A stretch of DNA of 64,000 nt from an uncultured Lachnospiraceae bacterium (GTDB taxonomy: Bacteria > Bacillota > Clostridia > Lachnospirales > Lachnospiraceae): positions 124,001 to 188,000 of the forward strand of contig CAMWTP010000001.1 in assembly GCA_947177165.1 (NCBI GenBank), in the 5' to 3' direction. Within the stretch, counting starts at the first letter, position 1. Each line of letters opens with the position of its first letter. Below the pieces are notes generated by a model. The model made no database searches. It saw nothing but the letters and a program-made list of their open reading frames with translations, and was not told the origin of the DNA. This document shows positions 42,200 through 63,352 of this stretch, piece after piece. Made by a program: the position numbers and the translations under genes.

Positions 42200-45100
42200 T
42201 TACAAATCAGGTAACACTCTCATCCGAATTAATGCTCTACGCACTGCTCTTTTAAAAGCAAATACCATTGCAAATCCCATCCCATTTTTCCTTGCTTTTT
42301 TCGCCAATCGTGCAATGTGCCCCTGCATAGTTAATGCCTTACTTTGATAAGTATTAATAAGCTTTTTCTCCTCCACCGTACATCTGTCTACCGAATATTG
42401 TAATTCCGCTCCATGATATAATTGATCAATAGGCTCCTGATCACGTAAAAAGAATATTTCTTTTATTTGATGTTTTGATATTCTAGGGGCAAATTCCACT
42501 ACTTTTGTACCAAATCCTGTCGTTTCAAAAGGCATACCACCGATAAAATCAAGTATTTCTGTATCTGCGGAATATGTAATATAATTCAAAAAAGCTATAT
42601 ACAATTGCGGATTATCTTTTCGAAAATAACAATCAAATTTTTCCTCACAATACGCTTGCGTAAACAAGCAGACACCATCAATATATTCCAAATACCCATA
42701 CTCTATTAACGCGTTTGTTTCATAATCTTCTAAAACAGGGACATACCTATTATCGATACATTCATATGTAACTGTTTGACCATGGGGCGCTCTACACAAA
42801 TTTTCGATAATAAATGACATTCTGTTGTTATTTGGAAGATAGTTTATAAACAAACTTTGTTTTCCATGTTTGATGTCATCTAAATTTAAAAAATATGTTA
42901 TAATCTTCTCTCCATAAAAATTTTCACAAATCTTCACTAAACATTCCTGAGTGGTGCCAGAACCCGACAATTCTACAAAAGCAAAATCATTTTTATCAAA
43001 ATCTACTTCCTGTTGAATATATCCAATCACATTTTTTCTTTTTTTTTCGCTTTCCTGCTCCAAAAATTCTTTGAAATCCATCCTTACTTCGAGAGCATTC
43101 CAAATTTTATAAATATCACTTAAACTAATTTCATTTCGTTTTTTATAAATATCCGGAAGATATTGCCGCAGAGTTTTCTCAGTAAAGAAAAAAATTTTTG
43201 CCAAATCACCAATTGTTCTTATTTGTGCCAAGTGCGCCATTTTAAAAAAAATATCTAATGATTCTTCTTTTTTGTATGATGGCATTCTCCATGCTTTGCG
43301 GGACCCATATATATATTTTGTAACTATATTATAATTTTCTTGTAAAATAATAATATCTGCAATCTTTTTGAGCACGTAACCGTCCCTTGCAATAAAATAT
43401 AATGTTCTGATTCCCCTCCTGATAGAATCCTGCAAGACCCACTCTATATACGGAACCAACATAATTCCACCTAAGGATGCCCCCATCGATTTTACACCTT
43501 CCAATTGATTTTTAATCCGAATTATTTTTGCAAGTCCAATTGTTAACTGCGCCTGTATATCTTTCTGATTATCCTCAATTACTTTCCTCTCACTTCTTTT
43601 CAATATTGAACCCTTATAGATTTTTGTTATAATCCCTAACTGTTTTGGAGCCTGTTCATCTGCATAAATATTGTCACCTACATGCGTCCAATTAGAAAAC
43701 TTTACTTTTTTTTCACATTGAACAAATTTAAACAGGTTTGTTGACCCCTTACATTTCTTGCACTCTGATGAAACATATATATTTATATTTTCAAACACGG
43801 AATCAAATTTGCATAAAAGGATCCTAATCTGATCAGAAGATAAATACATATCAGAAATGAGTACTACATCTTTTCCTTGCTCAAATAATTCTTTAACTCT
43901 CCCAATATTTTCATCTATTCCGACAATATTCTCATATTCTGTATCTAACTCCAATTTTTTAATTCTTTCAAGTTGTTGCTGTGATAATAATCGCATACAC
44001 CCAAACGCTTCGTATATTTGATCAAATGTCTTATCCTCGCATCTTTTTATACAATAGCTTTTCCTTGCTAAATTCTCCGCATGCTGTCTCAAATAATAAA
44101 AATTTTCCTTTATATACTCAGGTATATCCCCAAAAATTTTATCTCTATAAAGTTTTTCCTGCATTATTAGAAATATACCGGATGGTGTGGCTGTCTTTCT
44201 CGTAATAATAGTATCAAAAACATCAAATGAATATAAATGTTTTTCCTCTGCGTCTTCACCCCAGTCAGGAACGTGAACACGCTCCAGATCATCAATCCAC
44301 CATACAAACCGCTTTTTTAAATTTTCAGCTCTGTATAAATACAGGTTTCCGACAAAATATTGTTCAATATTTTTCTTAATATTTTCCCTATACTTTCCAA
44401 ATGTTGAAGTCTCCTCGTATCTTGACCGCGAAACTTTTCCCATTGCTTCTAAACATTCCGCGTTATCAATAATTTGTTCTATAGTATCTGCTAACTGCTC
44501 GATATTTCCAGTCTCGACAATCCAGCCATTTTCCGCATCCAGCAAATACTTTGCTCCAACATTTTGGCTCAAAAGTAACGGCTTGCCTAACATAGCCCCT
44601 TCTATAGCCACCAAAGAACAAGATTCATCCCTGGATATAATAGTGACAACATCGCAATGATACATTAGTGACAATAGTCTGCCTCTATCTTGTATCTCTC
44701 CATGAAAATAAATATTATTCGGATATTTTGCTATATACTGCATTAGCTGTTCAAAGTATTGCAGTTGGGAATCAAACTTTTTACCGACAATGTGAAGTTC
44801 GCACTTTTCCTGATATTTTAAATCAAGCATATCATAAGCTTTCAAAAAAATATCAAAACCCTTTCGTTTTTCAATCGTTCCAGACATATAGAAACTTATT
44901 TTTCCATTATCTTTTTTTAACACTGTTCTATCAATTAATAATAATTCATCATCTACATAATTTGGGACTACTTTAACATTCGTATTAAAGTATTTACATA
45001 TAAATTCTTTTGCATATTCGCTAACACACCAGATATTTTTTGCGCTTTTTAATGCAGAATATATTCTAAAATCATTCATAAAAAACTCTGGTATATTTTC

Positions 45101-45421
45101 TGCCTCTCTTATATACCAAATTGTCGGAACTACATTTTCTGCCGCCTCCACTGCTTTTCTGGTAAATACTGTATTACAAATTGCCAAATCAAACTTTTTA
45201 ATATTTTGAATCGTTTTCTTTTCCCTGAATTGTTCCGCAAGTACTATCTGCACTTTTATCGCAGTATTATCATATTCTACCCTAAAAGCGCCTTCTTTGA
45301 GACTCCATACTTCTACGTAATATCCTAAATCCAAAAGTACCTTGGCTAAACGCAATGTACTGAATGGTGATCCTGTATATGTCAATTCATGTATAATTAG
45401 CAATATTTTTCTTGATTTCAC
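42200..45421 (-). CDS. GT4 glycosyltransferase fused to a HAD-family domain
   Basis: 1073 residues. Residues 1-350 are a GT-B fold GT4 enzyme: TYTGSPFSTLRLAKVL, MSGTIEKRKGFDIF, and the nucleotide-sugar-binding ESCSLVAIEGAMLGKP. Residues about 385-600 are a HAD domain of the COG5610 kind with YSFDVFDT, LISDMYLSS and THVGDN, motifs I to III intact. The remaining 450 residues contain YFIARDGYVL, shared with two neighbours. Such proteins sit in surface-polymer clusters; HAD enzymes of this group are presumed phosphatases or phosphotransferases acting on the glycan. Confidence 0.85.
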   Translation of the reverse strand: MKSRKILLIIHELTYTGSPFSTLRLAKVLLDLGYYVEVWSLKEGAFRVEYDNTAIKVQIVLAEQFREKKTIQNIKKFDLAICNTVFTRKAVEAAENVVPTIWYIREAENIPEFFMNDFRIYSALKSAKNIWCVSEYAKEFICKYFNTNVKVVPNYVDDELLLIDRTVLKKDNGKISFYMSGTIEKRKGFDIFLKAYDMLDLKYQEKCELHIVGKKFDSQLQYFEQLMQYIAKYPNNIYFHGEIQDRGRLLSLMYHCDVVTIISRDESCSLVAIEGAMLGKPLLLSQNVGAKYLLDAENGWIVETGNIEQLADTIEQIIDNAECLEAMGKVSRSRYEETSTFGKYRENIKKNIEQYFVGNLYLYRAENLKKRFVWWIDDLERVHVPDWGEDAEEKHLYSFDVFDTIITRKTATPSGIFLIMQEKLYRDKIFGDIPEYIKENFYYLRQHAENLARKSYCIKRCEDKTFDQIYEAFGCMRLLSQQQLERIKKLELDTEYENIVGIDENIGRVKELFEQGKDVVLISDMYLSSDQIRILLCKFDSVFENINIYVSSECKKCKGSTNLFKFVQCEKKVKFSNWTHVGDNIYADEQAPKQLGIITKIYKGSILKRSERKVIEDNQKDIQAQLTIGLAKIIRIKNQLEGVKSMGASLGGIMLVPYIEWVLQDSIRRGIRTLYFIARDGYVLKKIADIIILQENYNIVTKYIYGSRKAWRMPSYKKEESLDIFFKMAHLAQIRTIGDLAKIFFFTEKTLRQYLPDIYKKRNEISLSDIYKIWNALEVRMDFKEFLEQESEKKRKNVIGYIQQEVDFDKNDFAFVELSGSGTTQECLVKICENFYGEKIITYFLNLDDIKHGKQSLFINYLPNNNRMSFIIENLCRAPHGQTVTYECIDNRYVPVLEDYETNALIEYGYLEYIDGVCLFTQAYCEEKFDCYFRKDNPQLYIAFLNYITYSADTEILDFIGGMPFETTGFGTKVVEFAPRISKHQIKEIFFLRDQEPIDQLYHGAELQYSVDRCTVEEKKLINTYQSKALTMQGHIARLAKKARKNGMGFAMVFAFKRAVRRALIRMRVLPDL

Positions 45422-48965: not shown

Positions 48966-50597
48966 TCATACTTTATCATCTTTCATACAGATGTCACTTT
49001 TAATTTTTAACACGCTCGGTGTTATTAATTCCAAATCGTGTACACCTTTATATTTTTGTAAAAAATCATCCAATTTCTTTTGCCAGCGTAAATTAGTAGT
49101 TTGTATCTCTTCCAAAGTTCTTTCTATGATTAATGATTTATCATAATAATTATCTTCGAGATTATTTGTAAAGCCATCCATCCCAGCAATTGCAATATGC
49201 GAGACTCCAATCTCGTGCATAAGATACAACACTTTAAACATGCTGCTTTCTTTATCTTGCGCAGAACATAATCTTTGGGCTGAGACAACCAATTCCAATT
49301 CGTTATTCGTTGCGATATCCGAAGTAACGATAACTTTCTTGTTTTTCTCATAACAAAACGAGTAATATCTTTTCTTATTTCCAAAAAAAGATATGCTGTT
49401 TTGGTAATCAGAAATAAAATTAACGCTGATAATAAATGGATTGTTCTTTTCTATAAACAAATCAATTTCCTGTTTTCTGTCCTGTAATGATTTCCCGGGC
49501 GCAAGTATTAAAACAATACTTTTTTTAATCATTTTCTTTATTTCTGCCAGATCCAAAGAATCATCATATTCTTTAAAGCTGTACTCTGCACATAATTCAT
49601 CGATTTTATTATATGGATACCGTTGTCTTTCTGTATCTGATAACATCGCTAAAATATTTTTTATATCATTCGTAGTAAAACTATATTTATCCAATAGATA
49701 CATAATATTATTGGGATGCGATTTATATATCCCCGCCATAAAAGAAGCCGGGGAGTAACCCCAATGCTTTTTTTCATAAATGTCATACAATTCCAAATCA
49801 ATAATCTCTAATATTTTTTCCAAATCATATGGGTATCCCTTTTTTCTCGCCAAAAAATCAACAACTAACTCTGTATTTGTATTTCCTGCACCCTTACCCA
49901 TTCCTCTCAATGTGGAATCAATAATAATATTTCTTACACCATTACTTAACTTGATTACTTCCTGCGCAAAAGAAAAAGACAGTTGCAAATTATTATGCGA
50001 ATGAAAATCAATTGCAATCTGCGCATTCAGATTATGGTCGGTCAGACTATATATACGCTGCACGTCATCAATATACATAGCTCCATATGTATCAACAATT
50101 CCAAAACTATATGGTTCAATCTCATTTATAAGTTCTATTAATTGTAAAAGCTGCAAGTCTGTGTAACTTAATGAATTTACTCCCTGCAAAAATAATTTAT
50201 ATCCTTTCCTTTTAATCAACTTAACATCATGGATTAATTCTTTTAAGGAATTTTCAAAATCATTTTTAGTAAAACCAAATCTAATACCATCAATTGAAGT
50301 TCCATCATTATTCTCTAATCTATTAATATCAAACATCCCAAAATCAACAAATGCTACATACAATGACCTTCGTTCTTTAGGCAACAATGGTTTAATTTGC
50401 TGGGTATCTGTAAAAAATGTACTATTTCCCATATACGTAGTATTTTTTGCATCCCTAAGGAATCCTACTTCGATTATGTCTATATTGGCCTGCTGAAGAG
50501 AATATATAATGCGTTTACTCTGTGTATCCGGAAATTCACAATTAATGATTCTTCCCCCATCTCGCAATGTACAATCAAGAATCTTAATATTATTCAT
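48966..50597 (-). CDS. HMGL-family aldolase with extra C-terminal domain
   Basis: 543 residues. The N-terminal 300 residues are a DRE-TIM metallolyase barrel: LDCTLRDGG at residue 8 (Arg/Asp catalytic pair), IEVGFLRD near 42, and the metal histidines in AIDFHSHNN near 200. The closest described enzymes are 4-hydroxy-2-oxovalerate aldolases, which join pyruvate to an aldehyde. From about 350 on is a separate domain (LILAPGKSLQDRK) that resembles DUF115-type proteins. It overlaps the cytidylyltransferase gene by 8 bases. The aldolase role is firm at family level; the substrate is inferred from its neighbours. Confidence 0.82.
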   Translation of the reverse strand: MNNIKILDCTLRDGGRIINCEFPDTQSKRIIYSLQQANIDIIEVGFLRDAKNTTYMGNSTFFTDTQQIKPLLPKERRSLYVAFVDFGMFDINRLENNDGTSIDGIRFGFTKNDFENSLKELIHDVKLIKRKGYKLFLQGVNSLSYTDLQLLQLIELINEIEPYSFGIVDTYGAMYIDDVQRIYSLTDHNLNAQIAIDFHSHNNLQLSFSFAQEVIKLSNGVRNIIIDSTLRGMGKGAGNTNTELVVDFLARKKGYPYDLEKILEIIDLELYDIYEKKHWGYSPASFMAGIYKSHPNNIMYLLDKYSFTTNDIKNILAMLSDTERQRYPYNKIDELCAEYSFKEYDDSLDLAEIKKMIKKSIVLILAPGKSLQDRKQEIDLFIEKNNPFIISVNFISDYQNSISFFGNKKRYYSFCYEKNKKVIVTSDIATNNELELVVSAQRLCSAQDKESSMFKVLYLMHEIGVSHIAIAGMDGFTNNLEDNYYDKSLIIERTLEEIQTTNLRWQKKLDDFLQKYKGVHDLELITPSVLKIKSDICMKDDKV

Positions 50598-51255
50598 GGT
50601 CGCTCATCTCATCTTTCAAAAATGTTTGATACATTGTTTCAGCAATCATAAAATCTTCTGGATAGTCAATGTCTATCGCTTCAATTGGGCTAATTTCTAT
50701 AAAATATGGATTTTTACCATAACGCGAATGCATCTGTGTGAACACTTCCCGTTTATAAATGCACAGATTCATATCAATAAACATAGGCTCTATATCTTGA
50801 TTTCTGAACATTTTGGTTCTGGTAAAATTAAACGGTTCTTTTTTATACCACAAAGGCTTATTTAAACGCTGAACCGTGTGCGCAGAATCATGAGCATCCC
50901 CCAATACTTTATTCAATCCGAGCTCAATACTCTCCTTTTTAACAAAAGGATTGGTAACATGTGCATTCACATAGACGTCTGCAACAACATCATTTAAGAA
51001 TGATTCAACAATCTCATAATGACCAACCATTGCCCCGTCAAGTTTTTCTGAACGTTTCAAAAATTTTACATTTTCCGGTAAATATGGAACAATTGCTTCA
51101 TTAGAACAATATACATAAATCTCATCTATTAAATCAATTTGTGTCAACGTATGCAACATATAATGGCACAGAGGTCTGCCGCCTAACAATTTCGTATTTT
51201 TTCCCGGCAGCCTCTGATTATTTAATTTAATTGGAACCCATGCTACAACCTTCAT
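50590..51255 (-). CDS. CMP-sugar-type cytidylyltransferase
   Basis: 221 residues of the acylneuraminate/Kdo cytidylyltransferase type. The N-terminal nucleotide loop is IKLNNQRLPGKNTKLLGGRP (the usual R-x-x-SKRLPGKN form), with YVYCSN near 48 and VNAHVTNPF near 95. IDIDYPEDFMIAE near the C-terminus matches the metal-binding DIDYPED signature. These enzymes couple CTP to alpha-keto sugar acids. No sialic acid synthase (NeuB) is in the window, so the keto acid may come from the coupled aldolase. Confidence 0.87.
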   Translation of the reverse strand: MKVVAWVPIKLNNQRLPGKNTKLLGGRPLCHYMLHTLTQIDLIDEIYVYCSNEAIVPYLPENVKFLKRSEKLDGAMVGHYEIVESFLNDVVADVYVNAHVTNPFVKKESIELGLNKVLGDAHDSAHTVQRLNKPLWYKKEPFNFTRTKMFRNQDIEPMFIDMNLCIYKREVFTQMHSRYGKNPYFIEISPIEAIDIDYPEDFMIAETMYQTFLKDEMSDHE

Positions 51256-51268
51256 ATTCTATATTCCC

Positions 51269-54200
51269 CTACTCTACAATCATATTTTCAATATACGCAA
51301 CTGCTTCTTCTATTGGACGGCCATATCTGACAGAGCGGACAGATAAATCATCAAAAAAATAATACTTATTTATTTGTGCTATGTGTCGTTTAAATGAATC
51401 CTTTTGCGTTTTCGAAAAACCATGTTTTAATGCTTCCTTTATTTTCGGTTCAATTGAGTTAATTGAATCCGCTTCATAACAACAGCCTTTTCCCCTTAAT
51501 GGTGTGTATGCCAATTCAACAAGTACTTTTCCACGTGTAAGTGCAATATACGCGACTCCCGAAATCATGCAGACTACAACATCTGCAATATCAATTAATT
51601 CATTTATATCTACATCCTTTATGTAATATACATTTTGTGGTATCTTAAAACCAGAATTCGATCGATCAATTTTATCCATAAGCGGATGCGGTTTGTAAAT
51701 TAGATTCCATCCATTCTTTTTGGACAACTTTGAAAGATATCTCATAGCTGCACCAGATGTTTCGAATGTAGGACTATAAAGTTCTTTGGATATATCATCT
51801 TGTGGAAAAGCAGGATTCTCACAGTCAAATGCTCCAACTAACAAAACATTTGGCTTTTGCCTATCCAGACTTTTTTTCAGAATCTCCAGTGTATTATTTA
51901 TTGGCTGTGAATACCGGTTTAGCCCCGTATTCCTTAAAAAATCAATAACTTTTTCAGCCTGCGCAATCTCCTCCATATCCACAGGCAAAGTATTAAATAT
52001 ATCAGAATCCGCATTAATCAGATCTTCCCCATATCCATTTGGGGATAACATAATCGTTCCCTCCAAAAATCCTCTTTCTACCGAGATTACCGGAATCCCC
52101 TTTCGCTTTGCAATTTGACCAGGAACAACGGAATTATTCCCCCAATTATTCCATACCATTAATACTTTAGGTTTCATTTTTTCTATTAAAACACTAAAAT
52201 ATCGTTCTGTTTCATATGCCAATACCATTGCAATACTCTCACTATATCCACTTAATACTCGGCGCCTTGTTAAATCGATAAGATACTTTTTACTTTTCAC
52301 CTCTTTTATTATTGTTTCCGGTACTTTTATTTTTTTATCCTGTCCATCGAATCCCCAAAAATTAAACATATATGGTCCTTCAATACATGGAAAGTCAAAC
52401 CATGTCGGCACTTTTAGAAATCCTGATGCAACAAAAACAAATCGCAATTTAGTACTTAAGTGTGATATCTGATTAAAAAACTTACCAACTTCTCGCGGTG
52501 AACCACCTACAAAAATAGAGTTTATCCCGCCACAATCAAGTGTGTTTATAAAATTGATATGCCTGTCTATCTGTTTTTGTATTTTATCTAAAGATATGAC
52601 TGTTTCTAAGGGATCTCCTATGATATTCCTGTAAAGAGTTCGTGCGGGCAACAGAATTCCCATTTTTTCCGCAGTCACATATCCAGTATGACGAATGTAA
52701 TCCCACATCGTTTTTTTCTTTTCAGTTACTGCACCAAATTTTCTATTGTACCAGTTTATAAAAACATTCTCATCTATAGGTGCAAGAATGGATCTTCCCG
52801 GATGTATAGTTGTTATTAGTTGAGCATCCTTTTTATCCGGATTCTCCAACATCTCTATAGCAAAATCAAATATTCCATGTCTGTCAATAACTAAATATGG
52901 TAAATATTCCGTAAAAATCCTGGTAAATGTATCTGTATAAAATGTAATCGCATTCTGCATTTGCTCAACAAGTTTATCTGTATTTATTATTATTTCATTT
53001 TTGGGCAATACATCCAATATTACTGAACATGTTCCATCTTTGTTTTCTTGGATTCCTGCAAAACCAGGATTTCTATCTGAAATAGTAATTTCAATTAATT
53101 GCGCCCAAATCCGCCCCATTTTATTAATATAATATTTTCCATATTCCCAGTATGCTTTTACAGGAGTATCCAAATCCTCTAATTTTGCTTTTGGAGTATC
53201 ATAAACTTCTGTTGTAATACAGCATAAATCAATATCAAAATATTTTTGCAGAAATCTCGAAGACTTACCTCGTGGTGATCTATCAAACAACGCTGTCTTT
53301 TTGTTTCTATCAATATTGGAAAGAATGTATTGTCGATAGAGCTTAATCTTGCTATTTGCATTCATGATAAAATATGGCTCTAATTCATTCAAGAAAACTC
53401 TATATTTTTCGAACTTACCAATTATATCATTTTTGCTTAAAAATCCATGCTTAAAAAAAATATTCATTATTTCATTATATTGATCTGGATCTGTACAAAG
53501 TAATCTTTTCTTAATAAAGTAGTCAACTGTCAACTTTTCATCCAATGGATTATCCGCAAAAGAATTAAAGAAACCATTCCTGTCTAATGCATTAAAAGGC
53601 AGTCGTAAATCCCGTCCCATATAAATGCGGGCAATCTCTATGGGGCGATCTGAAAAACAAGGACGCATTATCTGCAACAATTGCAGCGGCAAATACCCAT
53701 CCCGCCACACCATTAATAATTGTTCAATCTTATTTTTTTCAATATTTTCGATCATCCATTTCGTGAACCCTACCATCAGCGGCGCAAACCAATAGCCCAT
53801 TAAAACTATGTCACCATTAAAAAAAGTATTCTTGTCAAAATCTGCAAAAGGATCATCAAAATATAAATTGGCCATGATTCCATATAGCATCGCATTATTT
53901 GAATTCATCACGTCCTGAAGTATATAAGAGTGTACTTGCTTTAACTTGTCGCATTGATTCCATACATCAACAGATTTTGGTAAATGCATTGCAAACATAC
54001 CTGATGCCATGGCACAATCAACATCAGCCCTTTTATTGTCTCCAATATGTAATATTTCCTGCGATTTAATATTCTGCATTCTAATATCTGATAACACAAA
54101 CTGATACATCATCTTTGAACTTTTTAATAATCCTGTCTCGGAAGATACATAAATATGCGTATGTGCATCATATCCGTTTTTTTTCAAGCACTTATCTAAA

Positions 54201-54655
54201 AAATTGCTCGATAAATACATATCGGATATAATAATTATTTCCTTTCCAGCGCTTTTCGCTTTTTCATACAAATACTGAGCTGATTTTCGTGCATACAGCA
54301 ACGTATATTCAATTTTCATCTCCTCGCTTTTTATGCGTTCCGTTTCTTCTTCTGTTGTTCCAAACATATATGCATAAGTATTATAAATATCATCTAATGT
54401 AATATCCTGCACATACAACGTATTATCTTTACGTGCCTTAGCTTCCGCTGCAACACGCATATTATGATAATTAGGTATGTCCAATTTATTTTCAAGCAGC
54501 CGAAAAACATCTACCGGTGTAAGCACTGGCCGAAATAACAATGTATCAAAAATATCAAAACTCACTACTTTGATTGTGGGATCTAGTATTTTTTCTACAA
54601 TCTTATTTATTCCTTCCGAATAAAATACCGCATTCTTTTTTATTTCATTTTCCAC
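51269..54655 (-). CDS. HAD domain fused to a KpsS-like capsule glycosyltransferase
   Basis: 1128 residues from a GTG at 54653-54655 with AGGAG upstream; the longer frame (start 54739) reads through the relics of another gene. Residues about 25-245 are a COG5610-like HAD domain (VSFDIFDTLLF, IISDMYLSS, LHIGDNKRAD). The middle has LMVWRDGYLPL. Residues about 740-1090 look like Capsule_synth/KpsS transferases: PVISVERGFLEGTIMLSPNG and WNLIYKPHPLMD. KpsS/KpsC proteins transfer Kdo from CMP-Kdo, so a CMP-keto acid donor is a reasonable inference. First gene of the cluster. Confidence 0.78.
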   Translation of the reverse strand: MENEIKKNAVFYSEGINKIVEKILDPTIKVVSFDIFDTLLFRPVLTPVDVFRLLENKLDIPNYHNMRVAAEAKARKDNTLYVQDITLDDIYNTYAYMFGTTEEETERIKSEEMKIEYTLLYARKSAQYLYEKAKSAGKEIIIISDMYLSSNFLDKCLKKNGYDAHTHIYVSSETGLLKSSKMMYQFVLSDIRMQNIKSQEILHIGDNKRADVDCAMASGMFAMHLPKSVDVWNQCDKLKQVHSYILQDVMNSNNAMLYGIMANLYFDDPFADFDKNTFFNGDIVLMGYWFAPLMVGFTKWMIENIEKNKIEQLLMVWRDGYLPLQLLQIMRPCFSDRPIEIARIYMGRDLRLPFNALDRNGFFNSFADNPLDEKLTVDYFIKKRLLCTDPDQYNEIMNIFFKHGFLSKNDIIGKFEKYRVFLNELEPYFIMNANSKIKLYRQYILSNIDRNKKTALFDRSPRGKSSRFLQKYFDIDLCCITTEVYDTPKAKLEDLDTPVKAYWEYGKYYINKMGRIWAQLIEITISDRNPGFAGIQENKDGTCSVILDVLPKNEIIINTDKLVEQMQNAITFYTDTFTRIFTEYLPYLVIDRHGIFDFAIEMLENPDKKDAQLITTIHPGRSILAPIDENVFINWYNRKFGAVTEKKKTMWDYIRHTGYVTAEKMGILLPARTLYRNIIGDPLETVISLDKIQKQIDRHINFINTLDCGGINSIFVGGSPREVGKFFNQISHLSTKLRFVFVASGFLKVPTWFDFPCIEGPYMFNFWGFDGQDKKIKVPETIIKEVKSKKYLIDLTRRRVLSGYSESIAMVLAYETERYFSVLIEKMKPKVLMVWNNWGNNSVVPGQIAKRKGIPVISVERGFLEGTIMLSPNGYGEDLINADSDIFNTLPVDMEEIAQAEKVIDFLRNTGLNRYSQPINNTLEILKKSLDRQKPNVLLVGAFDCENPAFPQDDISKELYSPTFETSGAAMRYLSKLSKKNGWNLIYKPHPLMDKIDRSNSGFKIPQNVYYIKDVDINELIDIADVVVCMISGVAYIALTRGKVLVELAYTPLRGKGCCYEADSINSIEPKIKEALKHGFSKTQKDSFKRHIAQINKYYFFDDLSVRSVRYGRPIEEAVAYIENMIVE

Positions 54656-54690
54656 TATATATTGCTCCTTATCGTTATCTTGTGTTCTTC

Positions 54691-54985
54691 CTAAAACCCA
54701 TTCCCTGCATTCGGCTTTTCGTAATTGCAAATTAACCACTTGGTTATTCTATGCGGTAACTGCGTTTAAATAGTAAAATGGGCGATAGACATCCCCCACA
54801 CAATTTACATTATAATATTTAATGTCACCCTGCCCGTATTTTTACACAATATGAAGTCCTTTCCGCCTTGGTTTACATTGTATGATCACAGAACAATACC
54901 CTGTGTATCAAATGTAACAAAATCATGTTCTGTAAACTTATGTAATATACTTTATATTTTAGTATTTTGATTTGCATGCATCGAA
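54691..54985 (-). pseudogene. 3' relics of a second copy of the 599-residue HAD-like gene
   Basis: The minus strand still reads YEKPNAGNGF then stop (stop at 54691-54693), like the end of the intact gene at 45.6 kb. Further upstream it reads DIKYYNVNCVGDVYRPFYYL followed by NAVTA-stop-NNQVVN, and then sequences matching the intact gene's early region (near 47.05 kb). Large internal deletions separate the pieces. It overlaps the false N-terminal extension of the next gene. Confidence 0.8.
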
Positions 54986-55494: not shown

Positions 55495-56234
55495 TCAGAC
55501 CATCTCTAAAATCCCGGCTGTCTTCTCAAAATCCTCTATGGATTCTGCTCTCGCCGCAAGCTTGACCCATCTTCCGAGAACTTCCAAATCTGTCTGCTCC
55601 ATAATCAGTTTTCGCAGCTCTGACGATGGCTCACCGATATCCTTTAAAAATTCAATTGTATCTTCTGCCTTGCTCTCTGCTTTTCCTTCCGCTTTTCCTT
55701 CTGCTTTTCCTTCCATTCTGCCAACAAGTCTCTGGTCTTCCCACGCCTTACACATATCTGTATTCCTTTCCTTTTTATTCACCGGAACTTTCAGCCCCGT
55801 GAATGTATTAATTGCTGAAACCGCCTCGTTTTCCAGGTTCCTGAACCTTGGATTTCCGCCCAGTACTTCCCCCATTTTCTCCCTGTCGCCAGATGCCTTT
55901 ACGACTTCCAGTACTTCCCGCAACGATGTGCGGAATCTCCGAAAATCCGTTATCTCGTATGGAACGATTAGATGTAAATGGTAATTATCCACGTACTTCA
56001 ATATATGCGGATCAGATACTGTAAACATCTCATGCAGGCTCCTCGGTGCATCCCATTCGTCCGCTCCCCAGTACACAGTTAATGTAATTACCGGGGTTAA
56101 CTTATCTTCTTTTCGGAATCCTGAAATAAACTCTTAATCACCTGCCTGCCCTAAAACAGGTAGTAATTAAACAGATCTGCAAATCTCTCATTGTTGGATA
56201 GAAATTCTTTTGCCTTTGCGTCTTTTGCGCCCAT
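55495..56234 (-). pseudogene. Rpn-family nuclease/transposase gene, broken
   Basis: Begins with an intact start (AGAGGTC, then ATG at 56232-56234) and MGAKDAKAKEFLSNNERFAD, stops at TAG after NYYLF, and after a deletion resumes as EFISGFRKEDKLTPVITLTV. It ends with a MEGKAEGKAEGKAESKAE repeat and a C-terminal helical region. The start belongs to the Rpn (PD-(D/E)XK) family. Nonsense codon plus internal deletion make it non-functional, although the 193-codon C-terminal frame is open. Confidence 0.8.
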
Positions 56235-56306
56235 ATATGACCTCTTTTCATTGGTTAATTTCAGGTAAAAATGATTGATGCATGTTATATCCCATTGTTC
56301 AAACAT

Positions 56307-57283
56307 TTAAAGCGAAATTTTTTTCCGCAGCATCTCCACGTCAGCCTGCGTATAACCTGACACCAGTGATGTAATTTCCTCGACAGAATAATTCTTTTTA
56401 ATCATTTCAATCGCAATCTGCTGCTGTAGCGCACTCAATGCCTGATGCTTCTCTTTCTCCGCCTGACGTTTTACCTCTTCTACTTCCTGGCGCTTCTCCT
56501 CCTCGAAAATCTGTGCTACCTGCGTCACTTCGATCGCCCTCCTTATCCGGTTCGCTGTTTCCATGTCAATAATCTTGTCCGTAAATACGAGTATTCCTGC
56601 CAGTGCAAAAATCTGTTGTTCCCTGTTCTGAATCTTTGCTGCCAAATCCACTATTTCCCGCAGTTTCTTCTGTTTTTCTTCTTTTTTGTGGTATGACAAT
56701 GGCAGAACAATAAACTCCATCAATTCCTCATCGCTCAGCAGCTGGTTTTTCTCCACTTTTCCCTTTAGCTGATCGAAAATTTCCTCGGAATCCAACTCTG
56801 CCAGGAATGCGGTCTCTATATTCATCTTTACCGCTCCCATATCGTACTGAGCTGATACACGGCTGCGTTTTATATCACCCGTGTAGATTAAATCATGCGT
56901 ACTATAGGACACTTTTGTTTGTCCTGCTGGTATCGGTTTGCAATCCCAGTCAGATAATTCAGATATTTTACCTTATCTTCCTCATCGTACTCACTCTCGT
57001 AATCCACAAGTGCTACTGTTCCATCCGCAAGTTCGAACAGGTTATCAAGACGGAGCTCGTTCGCCTTCACTGTAGGAATGTTCGTCGGAAATACCTGATT
57101 TATTTCTGGCAGATTTAAACCATATACACGGAATGTTTTCCCTTTAAAATTTTCCGCCAGAAATTTGCCTGTGATATCTTTATTCTGGTAAGCGATCTGT
57201 CTCTTTTCTTTATTCTGATTCAGCGACTCTTCTTTTAATGCGACACGTCGAATACTGTCTTCTGCCTTTGTTCCTTCTGACAT
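56307..57283 (-). pseudogene. Second Rpn/YhgA-like gene with a frameshift
   Basis: Two overlapping frames. The first (57283-56888) holds the N-terminal and catalytic part (ITGKFLAENFKGKTFRVYG, LADGTVALVDYESEYD), ending KCPIVRMI-stop. The second (56912-56307) continues with LIYTGDIKRSRVSAQYDMGA and the coiled C-terminus. A single-base shift after VRMI would rejoin them to about 325 residues. It could have been active until recently, as the rest is undamaged. Confidence 0.8.
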
Positions 57284-59317: not shown

Positions 59318-60787
59318 CTAAAACTGAAAATAAATAAATTGACTGCTGTCATAGCCAATACCATAAATTCCAAACAGAATGGTACTCCATATTAGACCCA
59401 AATACAAAATCCATCGAAACCAAAGTGTTTGCCGGTTTACTAAAAGAAATACGCTTTCTCCTCTCTCGTGTATCATATCGACTAAGATGAGAACAAAAAT
59501 TCCAAAGAAAAGCATAAACCAGTTTCCTCTATCCAACCCAATCTCGAAAATACTTGTTGTCTGAAACGTAGTAAGCATTTGTCGAAAGATACCATAAGCA
59601 TGACGTAAATGGTCCACAGCAAAAAGTACCCATGCAAAATCCACCAAAATGAAAATAACAATTGCCTTTCCCAATCTCTGGCTAAAAGAAGAATGCGCGA
59701 TATCTTTTTCTTCTATTTTTAACTTCTTCAGAACTCGATTTTTAAATTTTGCAGCAATCTGATAGGCTCCATGGAGCAATCCCCATGCCAAAAAATGCCA
59801 GCTTGCTCCATGCCACAGGCCACTCACACCAAAAACAATAAAAATATTGACATACTGTCGAAGAGTCCCTTTCCGATTTCCGCCCAGTGGTATATATAAA
59901 TAATCTGTAAACCATGAAGTGAGTGAAATGTGCCACCTCCGCCAAAAATCTGCTATACTGACTGCAAAATAGGGCTGCTTAAAATTCTGCATCAGCGAAA
60001 AACCCATGACACGAGCCGCACCGCGGGCAATATTTGTATATCCGCCAAAATCACAATATATCTGGAATGCAAACAAAATAGAAGCAACTGCCAATTCAAA
60101 AAAACCATAATTTCCATAATTTCGGTATACCTGATTGACAAGAATAGAAGCCCTGTCAGCAATGAATAATTTCTGAAACAGTCCCCAAAACATTAATAAC
60201 AGACCATCCCGAACACGATTAAAGTCCCAAAGTTCTGTTTCTGTTATCTTCTGAATCTGGCGAAGCAGATTCCCTGACCTTTCGATTGGTCCAGCCACTA
60301 ACTGTGGGAAGAAAGAAACAAATAACGCATACTTCAAAATATTTTGCTCTGCCTTGATATTTCCTTTATACACATCAAGCGTATAACTTAATGCCTGAAA
60401 TGTATAAAAAGAAATCCCCACCGGAAGAAGCAAGTCCAGCCTCTTGTCTATCGTACCCAAACCCAGATAGTCTGTAATGTAGCTCAACGTCCGCAATGCA
60501 AAATCCGCATACTTAAATATGCATAATATTGCCAGGTTACTCATTAGTGAAACTGCTACTACAAGTTTCTTTCCATATTTTCCTTTCACTTTTTCCATCA
60601 GAAGTCCACTGATAAATGTAATGACTGTAGAAAAAGCAATCAGGACAGCGTACTTTGGGTTCCAACTCATATAAAAATAGTAACTGGCAATTAACAGCCA
60701 CAAAGTTCTCATTCCCTTTGGTATAATAAAAAATATTACTGTCACTATCGGGAAAAAAATTAAAAAATCAATAGAGTTAAATAACAT
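59318..60787 (-). CDS. MBOAT-family O-acyltransferase, copy 1
   Basis: 489 residues from ATG 60785-60787 (AAGGTGA upstream; an earlier GTG is rejected). About eleven membrane helices with the family motifs FFPQLVAGPIER, FWRRWHISLTSWF, YIPLGGNRKG and the catalytic-histidine motif SGLWHGASW near residue 325. AlgI/DltB/PatA-type enzymes move acyl groups across the membrane to the partner SGNH protein. It is followed by that partner and headed by a strong promoter. Confidence 0.95.
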   Translation of the reverse strand: MLFNSIDFLIFFPIVTVIFFIIPKGMRTLWLLIASYYFYMSWNPKYAVLIAFSTVITFISGLLMEKVKGKYGKKLVVAVSLMSNLAILCIFKYADFALRTLSYITDYLGLGTIDKRLDLLLPVGISFYTFQALSYTLDVYKGNIKAEQNILKYALFVSFFPQLVAGPIERSGNLLRQIQKITETELWDFNRVRDGLLLMFWGLFQKLFIADRASILVNQVYRNYGNYGFFELAVASILFAFQIYCDFGGYTNIARGAARVMGFSLMQNFKQPYFAVSIADFWRRWHISLTSWFTDYLYIPLGGNRKGTLRQYVNIFIVFGVSGLWHGASWHFLAWGLLHGAYQIAAKFKNRVLKKLKIEEKDIAHSSFSQRLGKAIVIFILVDFAWVLFAVDHLRHAYGIFRQMLTTFQTTSIFEIGLDRGNWFMLFFGIFVLILVDMIHERGESVFLLVNRQTLWFRWILYLGLIWSTILFGIYGIGYDSSQFIYFQF

Positions 60788-60840
60788 TTTATCCGTCACC
60801 TTTCAACTTCTCTATACGCTCTTTCCTTAACCGCTAAGTT

Positions 60841-61861: not shown

Positions 61862-63352
61862 TCAAAACTGAAAGTATATAAACTGACTGGCATCATATAC
61901 TGAACCATAAATTCCAAAGATGATAATACTAAAAATCAACAAATAATATACCGCCCACCGAAACCATGTTTCCTGTCGGCCGATCAGAGCATATAACGAA
62001 TACTTCTTCTCATGAATAATATCTATTATTATCAATAAAATAATAGTTAAAATCAAGAGCGACAAGTCTTTTTCATCCAAACCCAAAACATAAATACTAC
62101 TTGCCAAAAAGAAATGTGAACACATCTGTTTTATTATACGGAGAGCATTTGGCAATCCATCCGCCGCAAAGAACAACCACGCAAAATCGACCAGAATAAA
62201 AGTCACAAAAGCTTTTCTCAACCACTGGCTTAAAGAAAGTTCACTTGAATTTACCTTTTTACTCCAATTAAAGTGTTCCTGCATTCTTTTCTTCAAATCA
62301 CCACAAACCTGATAAATACCATGCAAGCATCCCCATACTATAAAACTCCAACTTGCACCATGCCATAAACCACTTACACCAAAAACAATCAGAATATTAA
62401 TATATTTCCGCAATTGTCCTTTTCGATTCCCACCTAGCGGAACATACAAATAATCTGTAAACCATGAAGTAAGTGAGATATGCCATCTGCGCCAAAATTC
62501 CTTTATGCTGGTGGCAAGATACGGCTGACTGAAATTTTTCATCAGTGAAAATCCCATAACCTGTGCTGCACCTCTTGCAATATCAGAGTAACCGCCAAAA
62601 TCACAATATATTTGAAATGCAAATAAAATAGTAGCAAAGGAAATTTCGACAAATCCGTATTTTGTATAATTAGTATATACCTGCTTTACAAGAATTGCTG
62701 CCCTGTCTGCAATCACCATTTTCTGAAACAGACCCCAAAACATTAAGATTATTCCATCCCTAACCCGCTCGCTATCCCATCGTATTTTTTCTGTCTCCTG
62801 AACCTGCCTCAGCAAATTATTCGATCTCTCAATTGGTCCTGCAACAAGCTGTGGAAAAAAAGAGACAAATAACGCGTATTTAAAAATATTTTTTTCTGCC
62901 ACAATTTCTCCACGATATACATCCAATGTATAGCTCAATGCTTGAAATGTATAAAAGGAAATCCCCACTGGAAGAAGAAAATCAAAATGGTAATCTATCG
63001 TTTCGATACCAAATTCACGCAACACCATATTAACATTATATAGAAAAAAATTACCATACTTGAAAAAAGCAAGAACAGCAAGATTAATCACCAGACTTCC
63101 TGCCACACATATTTTTTTATTTCTTTCCTTATGTACGGTGTGGACCATATTACATTTCTCAATCCATATTCCGCTAAGATATGTAACACATGTCGAAAGA
63201 GCAATCAATACCGCATACTTCGGATTCCAGCTCATATAAAAGTAGTAACTACTGATTAACAGCCAGATATAACGCATTTTTTTAGGAATAATATAAAACA
63301 ACACAACTACAATTGGAAAGAAAATTAAAAATTGAAACGAATTAAATAACAT
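61862..63352 (-). CDS. MBOAT-family O-acyltransferase, copy 2
   Basis: 496 residues, full length and clearly paralogous to copy 1 (FFPQLVAGPIERS, FWRRWHISLTSWF, VPLGGNRKGQ, SGLWHGASW). All family motifs including the catalytic His are intact. The neighbouring SGNH gene upstream is a wreck, but a further SGNH-like gene enters at the window edge. Its acceptor polymer is likely the same surface glycan. No promoter of the 60.84 kb type was found in front of it. Confidence 0.94.
   Translation of the reverse strand: MLFNSFQFLIFFPIVVVLFYIIPKKMRYIWLLISSYYFYMSWNPKYAVLIALSTCVTYLSGIWIEKCNMVHTVHKERNKKICVAGSLVINLAVLAFFKYGNFFLYNVNMVLREFGIETIDYHFDFLLPVGISFYTFQALSYTLDVYRGEIVAEKNIFKYALFVSFFPQLVAGPIERSNNLLRQVQETEKIRWDSERVRDGIILMFWGLFQKMVIADRAAILVKQVYTNYTKYGFVEISFATILFAFQIYCDFGGYSDIARGAAQVMGFSLMKNFSQPYLATSIKEFWRRWHISLTSWFTDYLYVPLGGNRKGQLRKYINILIVFGVSGLWHGASWSFIVWGCLHGIYQVCGDLKKRMQEHFNWSKKVNSSELSLSQWLRKAFVTFILVDFAWLFFAADGLPNALRIIKQMCSHFFLASSIYVLGLDEKDLSLLILTIILLIIIDIIHEKKYSLYALIGRQETWFRWAVYYLLIFSIIIFGIYGSVYDASQFIYFQF

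Follow-up and report, generated by a model that had tools for sequence, protein, structure and literature searches.

How is a sugar acid supplied for activation with cytidine monophosphate (CMP) where the gene for the activating enzyme overlaps that of an aldolase? This question is raised by a 64,000-nucleotide stretch of contig CAMWTP010000001.1 (C1 below; assembly GCA_947177165.1, positions 124,001 to 188,000) from an uncultured Lachnospiraceae bacterium, the whole of which we refer to as the window. Its minus strand carries the genes for an aldolase (ALD; 543 residues, 48966..50597), a CMP-sugar-type cytidylyltransferase (CYT; 221 residues, 50590..51255) and, upstream of these, a large protein, FUS. 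Judging from protein families and gene neighbourhoods, it is likely that ALD supplies the ulosonic acids that become activated with CMP, standing in for the phosphoenolpyruvate (PEP)-dependent enzymes KdsA and NeuB. The supply of CMP-ulosonates is a known kind of process; it is the first enzyme, the aldolase, that would be unrecognised, and no title or abstract on the ALD–CYT gene set was found in open-licence PubMed Central.

The assignment of ALD to the HMGL family, made in a first-pass annotation of this DNA, was confirmed by a match of residues 4–266 (the barrel, 49800..50588) to PF00682 in Pfam, with 79.1 bits against a cut-off of 29. The solved structure nearest to ALD was the putative aldolase 3dxi, followed by 4-hydroxy-2-oxovalerate aldolases such as DmpG (1nvm), to which the barrel could be aligned; synthases of the isopropylmalate/citramalate type matched more weakly than these pyruvate aldolases. 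The score with the NCBIfam equivalog TIGR03217 was 72.6 bits, below its cut-off of 286. Arg12, Asp13, His199 and His201 of ALD align to the DmpG residues that we take to be the enolate arginine, the metal aspartate and the two metal histidines, and all four are identical in the 129 ALD sequences aligned.

The cytidylyltransferase was also as first annotated, in family (PF02348, 69.8 bits; cut-off 22.6) and in its overlap of 8 bases with the ALD gene. Its best NCBIfam match was to PseF, with 52.3 bits, far below the cut-off of 205.7, and it exceeded the cut-off of none of the sialic, pseudaminic or 3-deoxy-D-manno-octulosonic acid (Kdo) cytidylyltransferase equivalogs in NCBIfam (NeuA, PseF, KdsB), so that the window CYT is best described as being of a weakly PseF-like kind.

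Relatives of the locus were collected in two scans. A family scan covered 299 genomes including the host, of which 121 had ALD relatives at E 1e-20, many of them short and without the C-terminal domain described below; 60 stretches were taken, 59 of which contain a full-length ALD, and these are a subset of the full-length ALD found. A scan of named genomes with an ALD profile contributed the best 80 loci of at least 580 relatives. The two scans share seven loci, and removal of duplicates having an identical 200-residue core reduced 139 loci to 132, a set in which the window's own locus is not counted and loci cut by contig ends are retained. Neighbourhoods were read with profiles built in this analysis, locus types being defined by same-strand matches within 8 kb, and clusters being counted among neighbours on the same strand up to six genes away. 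By these definitions 89 loci had a CYT without a thiamine enzyme (CYT-type), 37 had a thiamine enzyme without a CYT (thiamine-type), three had both and three neither. As these two enzymes define the locus types, their own distribution is no test, and as the loci are related to each other the neighbour counts are not independent trials. The CYT-type loci come from five named phyla, mostly as metagenome assemblies; the ALD–CYT set is found beyond Gram-positive bacteria, and the restriction to these suggested at first pass did not hold. Paenibacillus sp. 32352, Proteocatella sphenisci and Flavonifractor sp. An82 are carriers that have been cultured.

The adjacency of ALD and CYT is not a matter of chance: CYT ended upstream of ALD at a distance of 300 bases or less in 28 of the 59 loci from the family scan and in 60 of the 80 from the named genomes. 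The kind of CYT varied: of the 89 CYT-type loci, 41 have a KdsB-like protein, 42 a PseF-like one and six another CYT. Every one of the 43 KdsB-like proteins reached E 2e-45 or better with the KdsB models PRK05450.1-5 and PRK13368, and 25 also matched TIGR00466. Of the 42 sequences compared with PseF (41 PseF-like proteins, one truncated protein being omitted, plus the window CYT), 41 matched it with an E of 1e-8 or lower, the strongest match having 2.5e-23. On a tree of the 129 ALD barrels, of a quick kind that leaves 40 of its 126 inner branches open, the division into CYT-type and thiamine-type loci took five changes and the kind of phosphatase three, whereas the kind of CYT took 17 (PseF-like) or 20 (KdsB-like), at least 7 and at least 11 of which are forced by well-supported (starred) branches. 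Thus, the CYT partner was replaced repeatedly with the pairing to ALD kept, and since different CYT families were swapped beside the same aldolase, this argues for a functional tie. Phages and plasmids were considered as carriers and rejected, there being no phage match at E 1e-10 and one partial plasmid match at 31%.

Other neighbours of the CYT-type loci have counterparts in CMP-sugar pathways. KdsC was encoded in 35/89 CYT-type and 0/37 thiamine-type loci, and all 37 KdsC proteins matched TIGR01670 with an E of 4e-31 or lower, a value estimated to lie about at its cut-off; a Pgp-like phosphatase was encoded in 17/89 and 14/37, respectively. In one locus (L118:1177-3459) the ALD barrel, the C-terminal domain and KdsC are encoded in a single open frame 760 codons long, and CYT lies some 100 bases upstream of it. 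For the window a KdsC from elsewhere in the genome was rejected, the only match in the host that exceeded the cut-off being a 395-codon frame which also has a CYT-like match and lies on a contig with a NeuB gene (C42). MptE-like proteins were found in 27/89 CYT-type loci and proteins resembling PF07388 (the alpha-2,8-polysialyltransferase family) in 28/89, both in 0/37 thiamine-type loci. A representative MptE-like protein scored 61.6 bits in Pfam (cut-off 34.6), and of three PF07388 representatives two exceeded the cut-off of 23.3 (41.0 and 27.1 bits) and the third was under it (20.6 bits). As a set, from which six longer proteins of 28 were left out for profile and structure comparisons, the MptE-like proteins matched structures of GT42 sialyltransferases (about 2e-8) and, more weakly, those of MptE.

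The same fold family recurs within ALD itself, a point missed at first pass. No Pfam domain was recognised in the C-terminal part of ALD (about residues 345–543; 48969..49565), but profile comparison matched it to the MptE-like neighbours (90%, E 1.5e-6; 87%, E 4.1e-6 with other alignments), with 13 other neighbour profiles at 2.3% or less. GT42 structures were not found among the matches of the ALD profile. Within this MptE/GT42-like domain Gly472 and Asp474 are kept in all 129 ALD, and Pro367, Gly368, Asn393, Asn407 and Arg410 in at least 120. The domain occurs in CYT-type and thiamine-type loci alike and is therefore unlikely to be the CMP-sugar transferase; it may bind the acceptor or supply the aldehyde.

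A separate argument for a 4-hydroxy-2-oxo acid as the product of ALD comes from the thiamine-type loci. In these 37 loci, a thiamine carboligase and cytidine diphosphate (CDP)-sugar genes take the place of CYT, the carboligase being an acetolactate-synthase-like enzyme that falls in one cluster in 35 of them. By eye, 16 have a glucose-1-phosphate cytidylyltransferase-like gene, 15 a CDP-glucose dehydratase-like gene, 16 a DegT/RfbH-like gene and 15 a short-chain dehydrogenase/reductase gene. Residues 108, 110, 113 and 212 separate thiamine-type from CYT-type ALD. A review (PMC12247030) describes YerE as coupling decarboxylated pyruvate to CDP-3,6-dideoxy-4-keto-glucose, and the donors of ErwE as 4-hydroxy-2-oxo acids, not pyruvate or acetaldehyde. 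An aldolase would be the natural source of such acids, and both genetic settings agree with an aldolase that makes 2-oxo-3-deoxy acids.

From these observations a pathway can be proposed in which ALD, as a metal-dependent pyruvate aldolase, would join pyruvate to an aldehyde to give a 4-hydroxy-2-oxo, that is a 3-deoxy-2-ulosonic, acid. The aldehyde is probably phosphorylated in many of the related loci. Where there is a phosphate, it would be taken off by a phosphatase of the KdsC or Pgp type whose gene lies next to ALD; the adjoining CYT would then charge the free acid with CMP, and a transferase for CMP-ulosonates would pass the sugar acid to a surface polysaccharide. The window has no adjacent phosphatase, and its acceptor may be unphosphorylated or may be dephosphorylated by an enzyme encoded elsewhere; the user of the activated acid could be FUS or another capsule transferase of this large cluster. 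The first-pass suggestion that the aldolase product is charged with CMP without NeuB thus finds support in gene context (the conserved ALD–CYT pairing, the absence of NeuB and KdsA nearby and the ALD–KdsC fusion); the reaction, the order of steps and the substrates are inferred.

Several findings weigh against ALD as the source of the activated acid. The position of His21, presumably the catalytic histidine of DmpG, is occupied by Tyr in 111/129 ALD and by Arg in 11/129, including the window (Arg16), so that the acid–base chemistry differs, and for this reason ALD is classed as an aldolase of the HMGL superfamily and not as a DmpG. Of the 89 CYT-type loci, 37 resemble the window in having no recognised phosphatase (KdsC or Pgp-like) within six genes. 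NeuB is present elsewhere in many of the genomes, and the absence of NeuB and KdsA carries less weight where assemblies are fragmented or incomplete or contigs with ALD are short. In the host assembly, which is 95.5% complete with 7.0% contamination, three NeuB genes lie on contigs C32, C68 and C42. The first-pass statement that no sialic-acid or Kdo synthase is present was therefore correct for the window and for C1 and incorrect for the genome; a NeuB gene just outside the window, which had been named there as a counter-indication, was searched for as far as C1 reaches (223 kb), and no match was found on the contig or in the window.

These NeuB genes allow for a different explanation, in which CYT charges an ordinary nonulosonic acid made by a NeuB encoded elsewhere, and ALD is an unrelated enzyme of the same glycan cluster. 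The family scan gave 35 genomes with a CYT-containing ALD locus, and synthases were counted in 34 of them (G222 was left out). Strong NeuB matches (at least 144 bits) occurred in 20/34 genomes, which favours this explanation, but never near a full-length ALD: in one genome (G296) the two share a contig at a distance of 327 kb, and in the other 19 they lie on different contigs. KdsA exceeded its cut-off in 1/34, and 14/34 had neither a strong NeuB nor KdsA. Twelve more genomes had weak PF03102 matches over the cut-off, in frames of 337–381 codons to which the KdsA model also gave a match below its cut-off; these are most simply taken as DAHP synthases. A BLAST search of the surveyed loci with five NeuB/KdsA queries found one NeuB-like gene, in a locus that carries both CYT and a thiamine enzyme (L183). 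Furthermore, two of the three NeuB contigs of the host have CYT-like frames of their own, CYT stays beside ALD despite the repeated change in its kind, and ALD and KdsC are naturally fused. Taken together, this makes a NeuB-derived substrate for CYT improbable.

It is similarly doubtful that the product is ordinary Kdo, with ALD replacing only KdsA and joining pyruvate to arabinose 5-phosphate. The KdsB- and KdsC-family partners in many loci would suit this pathway, as would a KpsF-like SIS protein in the extended cluster of the host (99.9 bits, cut-off 203.7). However, the window CYT is not KdsB-like, and KpsF/KdsD-like proteins were found at E 1e-15 in 3/34 genomes, none over the cut-off, so that arabinose 5-phosphate was judged unlikely as the general acceptor. 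Least tenable, and highly improbable, is that ALD condenses an acyl-CoA in a Claisen-type reaction, in the manner of the isopropylmalate/citramalate synthases, or that CYT activates a phosphonate: such synthases belong to the same superfamily and match ALD, if more weakly, and PEP mutase exceeds its cut-off in 7/35 genomes including the host, but the best matches of ALD are pyruvate aldolases, a 2-alkylmalate lacks the keto group that chemistry with CMP or thiamine would need, and PEP mutase is missing even as a weak match from 27/35 genomes and never lies on the contig of a full-length ALD, for which reason phosphonate activation was rejected as the principal explanation.

ALD as supplier of CMP-activated ulosonic acids therefore remains the preferred explanation. 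On a more general proposal our opinion is evenly divided: that the two-domain aldolase, HMGL barrel plus MptE/GT42-like domain, is a third general entry to CMP-ulosonates beside NeuB and KdsA. This would include its presence in five phyla, repeated pairing with KdsB-type and PseF-like enzymes, 3-deoxy-ulosonic acids undescribed in the hosts, a sister branch feeding thiamine carboligases that lead to long-branched CDP-sugars, and a C-terminal domain representing a new catalytic or channelling use of its fold.

FUS had been annotated as the third member of the set, a fusion of a phosphate-removing HAD domain with a KpsS-like transferase. Its longest frame is 51269-54739 on the minus strand, but a GTG at 54655 is preferred as the start because AAGGAG precedes it, giving a gene of 51269..54655. 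The whole protein had no Pfam match at E 0.001. The HAD assignment stood, with 29.2 bits for TIGR01549 HAD-IA (cut-off 23.3), whereas the KpsS likeness fell short of the Pfam threshold: the match to PF05159 (Capsule_synth), at 51488..51709 and holding the KPHP motif, scored 13.8 bits genome-wide and 18.5 bits with the C-terminal third as a fragment, against a cut-off of 20. Two paralogues of the C-terminal part, 35–37% identical and outside the window, about 17–19 kb away on the same contig, pass PF05159 with about 31 bits. Two separately encoded proteins of this contig correspond to parts of FUS: a HAD-like protein aligns with residues 13–679 (31%, E 1.6e-92) and a Capsule_synth protein with residues 707–1118 (35%, E 9.4e-73). 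FUS is therefore a fusion of parts that are separate elsewhere in the cluster.

Motif I of the HAD domain reads DIFDT and, unlike DxDx[TV], has no Asp two residues past the nucleophile. The DxDx[TV] motif was present in 0/24 HAD proteins of the FUS kind, which we take to be COG5610, compared with 37/37 KdsC and 31/31 Pgp-like proteins. The domain can hardly be a phosphatase, and that role, proposed at first pass, was rejected. Proteins of this kind occurred in 18/89 CYT-type and 0/37 thiamine-type loci, which makes a connection with the use of CMP-sugars possible. The HAD-like part is common to three proteins (window 42200-45421 and 51269-54655, and L201:6266-8272; 25–31% identity), in one of which it is fused to a GT4 glycosyltransferase; we regard it as a capsule-cluster domain. 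The C-terminal part of FUS had no match at E 1e-10 in any of the 298 other family genomes. Hence the suggested three-gene adjacency stood for the ALD–CYT pair and failed for FUS, which was rejected as a conserved third partner; it is probably a user of an activated sugar and does not belong to the conserved core.

Just upstream of FUS (window 55495-57283) are what by eye appear to be remnants of Rpn-like nuclease and transposase genes, a possible sign of recent gene movement. Three genes for MBOAT-like acyltransferases, also recognised by eye, succeed one another in a single cluster (window 59318-60799 and 61862-63352; L201:1954-3540) and suggest a heavily acylated polysaccharide. About 12–20 kb past the high end of the window (L201:13010-18019 and L202:1030-4083), C1 encodes another PseF-like cytidylyltransferase (104.8 bits against a cut-off of 205.7), with genes for a GmhA-like SIS protein, a D-2-hydroxyacid dehydrogenase, an inositol-monophosphatase-like protein, a Gfo/Idh dehydrogenase, YhcH and the KpsF-like SIS protein as companions; it is likewise without NeuB on the contig and possibly represents another unusual CMP-sugar route. 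Elsewhere in the host, contig C18 (L093:8822-11602) has a second, short ALD of 341 residues without the C-terminal domain, accompanied by a CYT (40% identical); between the two is a gene whose product has a CxxxCxxC-like start and by eye resembles radical SAM proteins.

In many bacteria the ALD gene is kept beside that of CYT, and in most cases no sialic-acid or Kdo synthase of the classical type is encoded in the vicinity. This arrangement points to a route to acidic surface sugars that has gone unrecognised. If this is correct, many CMP-sugar activation genes of gut bacteria would serve sugar acids made by an aldolase from pyruvate, not sialic acids or Kdo, annotation by likeness to NeuA or KdsB would give the wrong sugar, and, through the thiamine branch, a single enzyme family would connect CMP-ulosonates with long-branched CDP-sugars.

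Compared with the Kdo pathway (KdsD, KdsA, KdsC, KdsB), many of the loci share a phosphatase and a cytidylyltransferase of the KdsC and KdsB families but have an HMGL aldolase in the place of KdsA, and KdsD-like proteins are rare; the window departs further, with no KdsC nearby and a CYT of a different kind. The sialic, legionaminic and pseudaminic acid pathways (NeuB/PseI with NeuA/PseF) are similar in CMP activation by a PF02348 enzyme and in the GT42-like and PF07388-like transferases near many loci, and differ in that no NeuB stands beside full-length ALD and the window CYT scores far below the PseF cut-off. ALD resembles the 4-hydroxy-2-oxovalerate aldolases DmpG, BphI and MhpE in its barrel, enolate Arg, metal Asp and two metal His; it differs from DmpG in the replaced His21, in the sequence beyond about residue 268, which is unmatched and contains the MptE/GT42-like domain, and in its neighbour, since the DmpG gene adjoins an aldehyde dehydrogenase and that of ALD a cytidylyltransferase. 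Finally, the YerE/ErwE branched-sugar pathways (yersiniose, erwiniose, caryophyllose) resemble the thiamine-type loci in combining an acetolactate-synthase-like enzyme with CDP-glucose genes, and the window locus differs from them in having no thiamine enzyme.

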